A DNA stretch of 37,116 nucleotides from Flavobacterium sp. (GTDB lineage: Bacteria; Bacteroidota; Bacteroidia; Flavobacteriales; Flavobacteriaceae), in assembly GCF_028712645.1 (NCBI RefSeq), contig NZ_JAQTPQ010000004.1, positions 1 through 37,116 on the forward strand, given 5' to 3'. The position numbers and the translations under genes were made by a program. Under the pieces are notes generated by a model, which did no database searches, had not been told where the DNA came from, and saw only the letters and a program-made list of their open reading frames with translations. Shown here piece by piece: positions 22,978 through 30,104 of this stretch (the stretch's first letter is position 1; each line of letters starts with the position of its first letter).

Positions 22978-25900
22978 ATGAAAAAAATTTACGTTTTATC
23001 AATGCTTTTATTAGTAAGTTGCGTTGGTTTTGCACAATTCACCTCAACAACTTATCGAGGAGCATTTGCACCAGCACCAACTCCAATGTGGACAGACACT
23101 TGGACTAACTTCGACCCACAAAATGCAGTTTATCCAGCAACAAATGTTGATGTAACAGCAAATATTACAGTAGACACACACTGGACAGTAGGAAACACAT
23201 ACTATTTGAAAAATCAAATTTATGTAAAAAACAACGCGACTTTAACCATTGATGCAGGAGTAGTTATCAAAGGAGATCATCTTGCAACAGGAGCAGGTTT
23301 ATTTGTTACTAAAGGGTCAAAAGTTAATGCCATAGGAACAGCAACTAATCCAATTGTATTTACTTCAGATCAAGCTCCAGGAAATAGAGCAGCAGGAGAT
23401 TGGGGAGGAATAATATTGTTAGGAAAAGGATCATTTAATATCAATGGAGGTGTAAACAATATTGAAGGTATTACAGCCTCAGCAGATACACAATACGGTG
23501 GAGGTTCAACACCAGATGACAATGACAATTCAGGAACATTAAAATATGTTCGTATAGAATTTGCAGGATATGTTTATGCAGTAAATTCTGAAATCAATGG
23601 ATTGACATTTGGAGCAGTAGGAAGAGGAACGACAGTTGATTATGTTCAGGTTTCTTTTGCTAATGATGATTCGTTCGAATGGTTTGGAGGAACAGTAAAC
23701 TGTAAACACTTGGTAGCTTTTAGAGGATTAGATGATGATTTTGATACGGATAATGGATTCAGCGGAAACGTTCAATTTTGTTTAGGAGTAAGAGATCCAC
23801 AAATTTCTGATGTTCCAGCAATTTCAACATCAAATGGATTTGAATCAGACAATAATGCAACAAGTGATGCTGTATCACCATACACAAGTGCATTATTTTC
23901 AAATGTAACGATAGTTGGGCCACATAAGAGAGTTACTTTGCCAAATGGAGGAACTTTAGCAGTTGGTTTTGGTAGAGATGCGCAGTTGAGAAGAAACACT
24001 AAACAAAAAATATTCAACACTATCTTTATGGATTACAACAACGGTATTAACGTTGATGGTGAAACTACTGAAACAAATGCGTTTAATAATGAGTTAAAAT
24101 TCAAAAACAACATTATAGCAGCAACTGTTACAGGTAAAACTTATTACAAAGCAGCAGCGCCAAATAATGCAAGTTTTGATATTGCTTCTTGGTTCACAAC
24201 AAGCAACAATACAGCAGTAGCTTTAAGCGATGGAATACTTATTAAACCTTACGATTTGACAGATGCTCAAGTTTACACAGGATTAGATTACAGACCATCA
24301 ACAAGTTCAATTGCTGCAACTGGTGCTGATTTTACTGATGCAAGTCTAGTAGGAAATATTCAATCTACTTTCTACTACGTAGATGTAGATGGTGATGGAT
24401 ACGATTCAGGTACTGCAGTACTAAGCGATGCAACTCCGCCAACTGGGTATTCACTTACTACATTGGGTTCGGATTGTGATGATACAAATTCAGCTATACA
24501 CGCTAATTGTCCTACAATTACAACGGTTCCTTACAGAGGAGCATTTGCACCAGCTCCAATTCCAATGTGGACAGACACTTGGACTAACTTCGACCCACAA
24601 AATACAGTTTATCCAGCAACAAATGTTGATGTAACAGCAAATATTACAGTAGACACACACTGGACAGCAGGAAACACATACTATTTGAAAAATCAAATTT
24701 ATGTAAAAAACAACGCGACTTTAACCATTGATGCAGGAGTAGTTATCAAAGGAGATCATCTTGCAACAGGAGCAGGTTTATTTGTTACTAAAGGGTCAAA
24801 AGTTAATGCCATAGGAACAGCAACTAATCCAATTGTATTTACTTCAGATCAAGCTCCAGGAAATAGAGCAGCAGGAGATTGGGGAGGAATAATATTGTTA
24901 GGAAAAGGATCATTTAATATCAATGGAGGTGTAAACAATATTGAAGGTATTACAGCCTCAGCAGATACACAATACGGTGGAGGTTCAACACCAGATGACA
25001 ATGACAATTCAGGAACATTAAAATATGTTCGTATAGAATTTGCAGGATATGTTTATGCAGTAAATTCTGAAATCAATGGATTGACATTTGGAGCAGTAGG
25101 AAGAGGAACGACAGTTGATTATGTTCAGGTTTCTTTTGCTAATGATGATTCGTTCGAATGGTTTGGAGGAACAGTAAACTGTAAACACTTGGTAGCTTTT
25201 AGAGGATTAGATGATGATTTTGATACGGATAATGGATTCAGCGGAAACGTTCAATTTTGTTTAGGAGTAAGAGATCCACAAATTTCTGATGTTCCAGCAA
25301 TTTCAACATCAAATGGATTTGAATCAGACAATAATGCAACAAGTGATGCTGTATCACCATACACAAGTGCATTATTTTCAAATGTAACGATAGTTGGGCC
25401 ACATAAGAGAGTTACTTTGCCAAATGGAGGAACTTTAGCAGTTGGTTTTGGTAGAGATGCGCAGTTGAGAAGAAACACTAAACAAAAAATATTCAACACT
25501 ATCTTTATGGATTACAACAACGGTATTAACGTTGATGGTGAAACTACTGAAACAAATGCGTTTAATAATGAGTTAAAATTCAAAAACAACATTATAGCAG
25601 CAACTGTTACAGGTAAAACTTATTACAAAGCAGCAGCGCCAAATAATGCAAGTTTTGATATTGCTTCTTGGTTCACAACAAGCAACAATACAGCAGTAGC
25701 TTTAAGCGATGGAATACTTATTAAACCTTACGATTTGACAGATGCTCAAGTTTACACAGGATTAGATTACAGACCATCAACAAGTTCAATTGCTGCAACT
25801 GGTGCTGATTTTACTGGAGTTAGTCTTGGAACTGATAATTTCATAGCAAGTTCTGAATTTTCTTTAGTGGTTTATCCAAATCCATCTGCAAGTACTTTCA

Positions 25901-26100
25901 AACTAAACTATATCTCATCTAGTAATGAAAAGGTAAAAGTTGATGCTTATGATCTTACAGGTAGATTATTAGAATCTCGTAATGTAGAATATACTAATAT
26001 CAACAATCAAGAAATAGGTAATGGATATGCTCCAGGAGTTTATATAGTTGTTTTAAAACAAGGGAACATTACTAAATCTGTTAGAGTTATCAAAAACTAA
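22978..26100 (+). CDS. Secreted multidomain protein with duplicated (likely beta-helical) module and T9SS type A C-terminal sorting domain
   Basis: Signal peptide MKKIYVLSMLLLVSCVGFAQ; two near-identical about 427-aa modules; C-terminus FSLVVYPNPSASTFKL...VDAYDLTGRLLESR...GVYIVVLKQGNITKSVRVIKN. Confidence 0.9.
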   Translation: MKKIYVLSMLLLVSCVGFAQFTSTTYRGAFAPAPTPMWTDTWTNFDPQNAVYPATNVDVTANITVDTHWTVGNTYYLKNQIYVKNNATLTIDAGVVIKGDHLATGAGLFVTKGSKVNAIGTATNPIVFTSDQAPGNRAAGDWGGIILLGKGSFNINGGVNNIEGITASADTQYGGGSTPDDNDNSGTLKYVRIEFAGYVYAVNSEINGLTFGAVGRGTTVDYVQVSFANDDSFEWFGGTVNCKHLVAFRGLDDDFDTDNGFSGNVQFCLGVRDPQISDVPAISTSNGFESDNNATSDAVSPYTSALFSNVTIVGPHKRVTLPNGGTLAVGFGRDAQLRRNTKQKIFNTIFMDYNNGINVDGETTETNAFNNELKFKNNIIAATVTGKTYYKAAAPNNASFDIASWFTTSNNTAVALSDGILIKPYDLTDAQVYTGLDYRPSTSSIAATGADFTDASLVGNIQSTFYYVDVDGDGYDSGTAVLSDATPPTGYSLTTLGSDCDDTNSAIHANCPTITTVPYRGAFAPAPIPMWTDTWTNFDPQNTVYPATNVDVTANITVDTHWTAGNTYYLKNQIYVKNNATLTIDAGVVIKGDHLATGAGLFVTKGSKVNAIGTATNPIVFTSDQAPGNRAAGDWGGIILLGKGSFNINGGVNNIEGITASADTQYGGGSTPDDNDNSGTLKYVRIEFAGYVYAVNSEINGLTFGAVGRGTTVDYVQVSFANDDSFEWFGGTVNCKHLVAFRGLDDDFDTDNGFSGNVQFCLGVRDPQISDVPAISTSNGFESDNNATSDAVSPYTSALFSNVTIVGPHKRVTLPNGGTLAVGFGRDAQLRRNTKQKIFNTIFMDYNNGINVDGETTETNAFNNELKFKNNIIAATVTGKTYYKAAAPNNASFDIASWFTTSNNTAVALSDGILIKPYDLTDAQVYTGLDYRPSTSSIAATGADFTGVSLGTDNFIASSEFSLVVYPNPSASTFKLNYISSSNEKVKVDAYDLTGRLLESRNVEYTNINNQEIGNGYAPGVYIVVLKQGNITKSVRVIKN
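23057..24337 (+). repeat. Direct repeat copy 1 (1281 bp)
   Basis: Matches 24536-25816 with offset 1479; four mismatches seen, all within 23076-23189. Confidence 0.95.
24536..25816 (+). repeat. Direct repeat copy 2 (1281 bp)
   Basis: See copy 1. Confidence 0.95.
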
Positions 26101-29179: not shown

Positions 29180-29224
29180 ATAAAAATTAAGGAAAAGACT
29201 TTTTTAAATGTGCCGTCCCCAAAA

Positions 29225-29690
29225 AGTTAAGCACTATTTGAGGACACGTCAAAAATAGCAATCAATGCAATATGTGATGGATGTGGTGGCAAAAAAGTAT
29301 GCCAACATAGGAAGTCTAACCAGCATTGGCGAAATTTTATATTGGTACATCAAGAAAAAAATATTGGAATCACAAGAATAAATCCAATGTTATAAAAAAG
29401 AGGAACACCTAATTATAAATCCCGTAAGCAACTTTCCCTACTGACTATATTTTCTTCCAAAAAGCTGAATTATACAATCCGCAATTACCTTTGCCGCGGC
29501 ACTTTTTGCTACTAACTTTCCTATCATTTCGCCAATACAAATAACAATTACTATTGAGCCATCCTATCACCAATCCCTTTTTGTACCGCAACTGTAATTT
29601 TCGAATAAGGAATCCCAAGTGCAAGTCCCGCAATTTTAGATAAACTTATAAAAAAAGTCGTTTTTGTATTGGATAACATTGTTGTTCAAA
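29225..29690 (-). pseudogene. Decayed N-terminal part of a GntP-family gluconate permease
   Basis: Minus-strand pieces in shifting frames: TFFISLSKIAGLALGIPYSKITVAVQKGIGD; IVIVICIGEMIGKLVAKSAAAKVIADCIIQLFGRKYS; LGVPLFYNIGFILVIPIFFS; FLPPHPSHIALIAIF, in the same order as in GntP. Confidence 0.8.
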
Positions 29691-29917
29691 AAAAATAAAT
29701 AAAATTCCGAACTCAATGTTTGTGGCACATACTGACAGTTCGCTCCTCTGGAGCTTGTTTTGGGCGAGACTCACTTTTTCTACAAACAGTCTGTCCCGAT
29801 GGGACTGAAATAGCTCCGTTAGGAGTGAACTGTTTGTAGAAAACAGTAATTTTTGTTGAATAAAGCTCCGAAGGAGCGACCTGTTGATTATTCATAAAAT
29901 TTTATCGGACAACAATG
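29677..29917. mobile_element. MITE-like 241-bp non-coding element
   Basis: Terminal inverted repeats CATTGTTGT (29677-29685) / ACAACAATG (29909-29917), directly flanked by perfect 9-bp direct repeats ATTGGATAA (29668-29676 and 29918-29926); palindromic interior. Confidence 0.75.
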
Positions 29918-30104
29918 ATTGGATAAATAGTAATACTCTAAAAATAAACCCTTTGTTTTATTGCGCAATTTGCATATAAAAATACGCAGAACAAGTATTT
30001 AAAATCGAGAAGTTATGGTATTATTGCACAGTCTGATGGTGTATTCCTAATGAATAATTTGTGAAAAAAAAGTAATTTGTGGAAAACCATAAATTCAAAA
30101 AAAT

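Follow-up and report, generated by a model that had tools for sequence, protein, structure and literature searches.

The window analysed here is a stretch of 37,116 nucleotides of Flavobacterium DNA, which lies on contig C150 of an assembly of 3.6 Mb (389 contigs, 92% complete). It contains a short intergenic element of 241 bp at positions 29677-29917, flanked on both sides by a 9-bp direct repeat and followed downstream by a transporter gene. The intergenic region before the element (29180-29660) looks decayed, with short broken frames ('gtgccgtccccaaaaagttaagcac'), and is possibly an old insertion-sequence or gene remnant. Elsewhere in the window, positions 22978-26100 encode a predicted secreted protein of 1040 aa with two halves that are almost the same (TTYRGAFAPAPTPMWTDTWTNFDPQN.. 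twice) and, behind them, a C-terminal sorting-type tail. The repetition would stem either from a tandem duplication that is recent and in frame, or from the assembly.

Boundaries and copies of the element

Read directly from the window, the layout at 29668-29926 is ATTGGATAA immediately followed by the left end CATTGTTGT and, on the other side, the right end ACAACAATG immediately followed by the second ATTGGATAA (Table 1). The perfect 9-bp target-site duplication, which abuts the inverted repeats without a gap, is present exactly as claimed in the preliminary description of this DNA. The inverted repeats themselves had been described as perfect over 9 bp. This is correct for the outer 9 bp, but the true repeat is 18 bp long, with the consensus CATTGTTGTCCGATAAAA. 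Compared with this consensus, the left end of the window copy carries 3 mismatches within its first 17 bases. Since it is decayed after position 9, only the outer 9 bp of the two ends pair perfectly, which is why 9 instead of 18 bp were seen at first. Due to this decay, the window copy may no longer be able to move. The interior, described as free of any credible protein, indeed contains a longest ORF of only 60 aa, which lies on the minus strand, spans the hairpin and shows no sign of being a gene.

Table 1. Sequence features of the element and its flanks in the window.
Feature	Position	Strand	Basis or remark
Target-site duplication, left copy, 9 bp, ATTGGATAA	29668-29676		
Left terminal inverted repeat, decayed, CATTGTTGTTCAAAAAAA vs CATTGTTGTCCGATAAAA	29677-29694	+	consensus of other copies
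REPIN-like core, inverted pair of two-part units, <-[B..A][A..B]->	29735-29885		fold and units flanking Y1 genes
Unit B, left arm, AGCTCC-AGA-GGAGCGAACTGT on minus strand	29735-29756	-	terminator-like hairpin on + strand
Unit A, left arm, ACTGTTTGTAGAAAA on minus strand	29776-29790	-	15/15 complementary to 29829-29843
Central small palindrome GTCCCGATGGGAC	29793-29805		
Central small palindrome GCTCCGTTAGGAG	29813-29825		
Unit A, right arm, ACTGTTTGTAGAAAA	29829-29843	+	
Unit B, right arm, AAGCTCCGAAGGAGCGACCTGTT	29863-29885	+	terminator-like hairpin on - strand
Right terminal inverted repeat, intact, 18 bp, CATTGTTGTCCGATAAAA on minus strand	29900-29917	-	identical to both ends of IS4-family L137, L140, L141, L159
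Target-site duplication, right copy, 9 bp, ATTGGATAA	29918-29926		

Within the window, no other exact 9-bp inverted repeat with a span of 50-1000 bp abuts a direct repeat that is also exact over 9 bp. Dinucleotide shuffling of the window gave a comparable arrangement in 3 of 200 cases, and therefore the 9-bp repeats alone are only moderately significant.

The own genome harbors four full-length copies of 241-244 bp including that of the window, to which the other three are 95, 94 and 85% identical. All four have the same terminal bases and unrelated flanks, and their homology stops at the proposed ends. Furthermore, each copy is bordered by its own duplication, which is perfect in the window copy (C150, ATTGGATAA) and the C15 copy (ATCGAAATA) and near-perfect in the C225 copy (ATTTTTTT(T), one mismatch) and the C388 copy (TTAAAATAT, one extra A at the right end). 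A search of the genus revealed matches in 18 of 300 genomes, and many of the copies elsewhere share the ends as well as 9-bp duplications, for example ATTTTATAT, ATTATTTAT, AAACCAAAA and ATTTTAATT. These results are in line with the dispersed copies of constant boundaries and different 9-bp flanks that had been predicted. The preliminary description had also named homology beyond the proposed ends, or the lack of a duplication around every copy, as observations that would speak against a mobile element; the full copies end where proposed and several of them carry their own duplications.

Comparison of the central palindromes with named genomes yielded nine stretches, all from Flavobacterium or Flavobacteriales, including F. 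flevense DSM 1076, and no match to the element was found in plasmid and phage records or in Rfam. Among the copies examined, ends of the window type without a core, hence an empty shell, were not seen. For the downstream transporter gene, no close homologue was present among the genus relatives searched, and because this neighboring gene is not conserved in the relatives, no empty target site was found.

Some loci deviate from this picture. Two near-matches to the terminal inverted repeat in the own genome are not IS copies. The one at C26 is a chance match within a coding sequence, and the one at C362 (15430-15446; L013 1501-1517) is a lone intact CATTGTTGTCCGATAAA end beside the apparent 3' part of an rRNA operon and represents a one-ended remnant. 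In genome G227, a 488-bp tandem pair (L101 1501-1988) arose where a partial element and its right flank are duplicated, which creates an apparent outer 9-bp duplication; the pair seems to result from a tandem duplication in place that included the flank and does not count as an independent element. A compound element of 342 bp (L166 287-628, also L091) contains an extra left-type end inside and is bordered by a perfect outer ATTACCAAT duplication.

The duplications were surveyed in 39 elements bounded by the terminal inverted repeats, comprising MITEs and IS copies (the tandem pair L101 is included; its removal leaves the conclusion unchanged). An exact 9-bp duplication was present in 17 of the 39 and one with at most one mismatch in 24, compared to 1 and 12, respectively, of 1482 control pairings, in which the left flank of one element was combined with the right flank of another. 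For the MITE-type elements, the values are 10/25 (exact) and 16/25 (at most one mismatch), and 7 of 13 IS copies have an exact duplication. The exact duplications of the whole set display a symmetric sequence preference close to ATTNNNAAT, to which the window duplication ATTGGATAA shows only a partial fit.

An IS4-family transposon with the same ends

It had been suggested that the terminal inverted repeats could identify the partner transposase and that an autonomous IS with ends of the same type should exist. Here, the DDE_Tnp_1 genes in genomes bearing the MITE were checked for the ends of the element. This revealed one IS with related ends in G272 (CATTGTTGTCCGACTAAA at the better end), and relatives of its transposase are present in 28 of 300 genomes. 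In other Flavobacterium genomes, IS4-family elements of 1.39-1.45 kb are bounded by CATTGTTGTCCGATAAAA-type ends. The identity to the terminal inverted repeat is 18/18 at both ends in L137, L140, L141 and L159; in L132, L133, L135 and L158, it is 18/18 for one end and 16/18 for the second. Perfect 9-bp duplications flank seven of these (L132, L133, L135, L137, L140, L158 and L159); those of elements with 18/18 identity at both ends are ATTTGCTTT, ATTTGCAGA and TATTAAATT. Both expectations were thereby borne out, as the shared ends led to an IS4-family transposase and to autonomous elements with identical ends and 9-bp duplications.

The transposase of L137 is a single ORF of 406 aa without a frameshift. 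It scores 216 bits against the NCBIfam model IS4_1 (NF033592, cut-off 115) and contains the complete YREK signature, Y-2-R-3-E-6-K (YKIRWQIELLFKQIK), the hallmark of the IS4 family (PMC2266710). The relative L106 displays the DDE_Tnp_1 and DUF4372 domains. Direct repeats of about 10 bp are described for the IS4 family and of 8-10 bp for the IS4Sa subgroup (PMC2266710). The partner IS resembles the IS4Sa-like elements in its CA start, the T at position 9, the length of about 1.4 kb and the 9-bp duplication, and it fits this subgroup by end sequence, size and duplication length only. In contrast to such IS4 elements, the window element lacks a transposase.

Within the own assembly, which is fragmented and 92% complete, no intact partner transposase was found. 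Four DDE_Tnp_1 genes were found in it, not one of which is enclosed by the ends of the element, and the partner is represented only by a decayed, frame-broken fragment at C360 (12838-13102), which shares 48-54% identity with two parts of the IS transposase. The organism may have lost the partner IS, or the assembly may lack it. G272 is the only one of the MITE-bearing genomes followed in which a transposase of the IS group with matching ends is present as well. MITE and IS have the 18-bp ends in common and share no subterminal sequence, which gives no support to an origin of the MITE by simple internal deletion from those IS copies that were found.

The palindromic core and Y1/HUH transposase genes

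Between its ends, the window element harbors an inverted pair of palindromic units (Table 1), each composed of ACTGTTTGTAGAAAA (A), a spacer and AGCTCC-NNN-GGAGCGA-CTGT (B). As DNA, this core forms a long predicted hairpin (fold z = -6.3), and the whole element also folds as RNA (z = -8.6). Each unit contains TTTGTAG, with the next palindrome about 20 or more bases off. The terminator-like hairpins, one per strand, could possibly have a side effect on the neighboring genes. Unit B has 12 matches in the own genome, 8 of them in the four MITEs, 3 at C165 and 1 at C271; a high copy number of solo units, as is typical for REP/REPIN, was therefore not observed in this genome.

Core units without the shell are present at C165, where they border a gene for a Y1/HUH transposase of 139 aa on either side. 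Five other Flavobacterium genomes contain this Y1 gene with 87-93% identity in the same arrangement, [A..B]->gene<-[B..A]. Thus, in six genomes including the own, the gene is placed between inverted units at nearly equal distance and without the 18-bp repeats. The C165 protein scores 91 bits for Y1_Tnp, with HVH and Y motifs present, and is above the cut-off for IS200 (NF033573, 70.4 bits, cut-off 55) but below that for REP_Tyr_transpos (NF047646, 36.8 bits, cut-off 80). Due to the latter, the core is called REPIN-like and is not filed as a member of the REP/REPIN group. With the motifs DHVH, WQ and YILNQ, the protein resembles subclass 1.2, by motif only, whose members are reported to be generally without terminal structures (PMC6006769). 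Of the three strong Y1 genes in the own genome (C165, C158 and C219), only the one at C165 has a window-type unit beside it.

The same shell was also found around other cores, in two further species. In G139, one element of 292 bp has the same ends, the duplication ATTCAAAAC and a different palindromic core. This core (query 88-229) is present alone at dozens of places, with 70 matches when both strands of the palindrome are counted, and the eleven best solo cores, when checked, showed no terminal inverted repeat above background. G102 contains about eight copies of a 220-bp element with a third core, which likewise occurs alone (about query 70-205). Several of the partial copies in G102 keep one recognizable end, and some may be decayed full elements. 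By blastn, the three core families are mutually unrelated, and the surroundings of cores of the second and third type revealed no relative of the C165 Y1 gene. Since different cores lie within the same ends and are also found alone, the pattern is one of IS4-type ends placed around palindromic REP-like repeats, with three core families.

Origin of the element and relation to known systems

The element is best explained as a non-coding MITE of the IS4 family with a REPIN-like core of HUH type, which would be moved in trans by an IS4-family transposase; based on the sequence comparisons, we assign a probability of roughly 0.88 to this reading. The constant ends, the dispersed copies with their own duplications and the autonomous IS4 elements with the same ends agree well with the non-autonomous MITE proposed at the outset. 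The 18-bp end, the partner family, the insertion preference, the REPIN-like core and the shell-and-core pattern have been added to that proposal.

Mechanistically, an IS4-family DDE transposase acting in trans would recognize the 18-bp ends CATTGTTGTCCGATAAAA, and presumably moved the window copy as well. By analogy with the IS4 family, it would cut out the element and paste it into AT-rich sites resembling ATTNNNAAT, and staggered cuts 9 bp apart would give rise to the 9-bp duplication. The most likely history is that a palindromic repeat of HUH type became enclosed by two IS4-type ends, after which the whole spread as a passenger of IS4. The core itself might descend from a repeat processed by an HUH enzyme, and the Y1 protein might still recognize it.

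A more far-reaching reading is that IS4-type ends in Flavobacterium serve as a general carrier for HUH-type repeats, that the three unrelated families were captured independently and that the resulting elements can be substrates for DDE cut-and-paste at the ends as well as for HUH single-strand processing of the core. This is tentative, and we regard it as the less probable outcome. If it were true, the Y1 enzyme encoded next to the window-type core would be of a subclass 1.2-like type for which a cognate hairpin repeat is visible.

On the other hand, the core could be an ordinary MITE interior, which was selected as a terminator or RNA hairpin and has no HUH role, its likeness to the sequences beside the Y1 genes being the result of copying or recombination of MITE interiors. 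The two opposite-facing terminator-like hairpins and the very strong fold would fit to this, and so would the finding that a unit accompanies just one of the three strong Y1 genes of the own genome. However, the Y1 genes of six genomes (87-100% identity) lie between inverted units at a similar distance without terminal inverted repeats, and two unrelated cores behave likewise, alone and in the shell. This explanation is judged to be rather unlikely.

Far less probable is that the core is the original mobile element, of REP/REPIN type and moved by HUH enzymes, with the 18-bp ends being a fixed part of some copies and the duplications stemming from another process. Although the cores are indeed found alone, without ends, and beside HUH transposases, the shells carry 9-bp duplications. 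To our knowledge, the HUH transposases of the IS200/IS605 group make no target duplications. Furthermore, the same ends and the same duplication length are present on bona fide IS4 elements, which largely refutes this possibility. Finally, a mere intergenic hairpin bordered by repeats that fell into place by chance, as happened in 3 of the 200 shuffled windows, is refuted by the dispersed full-length copies, whose ends agree and which have duplications of their own, and deserves practically no credence.

Besides the IS4Sa-like insertion sequences, the IS4-type MITE with its palindromic core is comparable to three known systems. Mobile insertion cassettes carry passenger genes. Those such as MIC231, which has the ends of the IS4-family element IS231, are non-autonomous, and their movement is believed to occur in trans (cited in PMC2266710). 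The window element is likewise non-autonomous with IS4-family ends; in contrast to the cassettes, its cargo is a non-coding palindromic repeat, and it has the ends of a different IS4 subgroup. With the REP, REPIN and BIME repeats and their RAYT or TIRYT transposases (PMC3733652, PMC6006769), it has in common an inverted doublet forming a long hairpin, whose units flank a Y1 gene. It differs from these in that the window copy sits inside an IS4-type shell and the Y1 protein scores as IS200, not as REP_Tyr_transpos. The BrickBuilt element of Porphyromonas gingivalis (PMC4596501) is also a MITE of Bacteroidota with a repeat interior, but has IS5-type ends, a minisatellite interior and duplications of inconsistent length. 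A search of the open-access literature, with subscription papers and ISfinder outside its scope, yielded no description of the element family or of the end sequence.

Through the exact ends and the duplication length, an anonymous intergenic repeat is tied to a named transposase family, and this pairing is directly testable. Furthermore, how REP-like repeats spread is still debated, and the palindromic cores point to one way in which they could do so, namely as passengers of a DDE transposon.

The two remaining strong Y1 genes of the own genome are flanked by inverted palindromes as well, with sequences different from that of the window type. At C158 (L169 1254-1936), these are inverted GTTCC-TAAC-GGAAC palindromes with arms of 29 nt that are 90% complementary. 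At C219 (L170 1240-2022), the flanking repeats combine the palindrome CAACGGATTAAAATCCGTTG with an adjacent GCTACAA/TTGTAGC tag, and represent a second, different palindrome system that is closer to the layout of the GTAG-tagged REPs.
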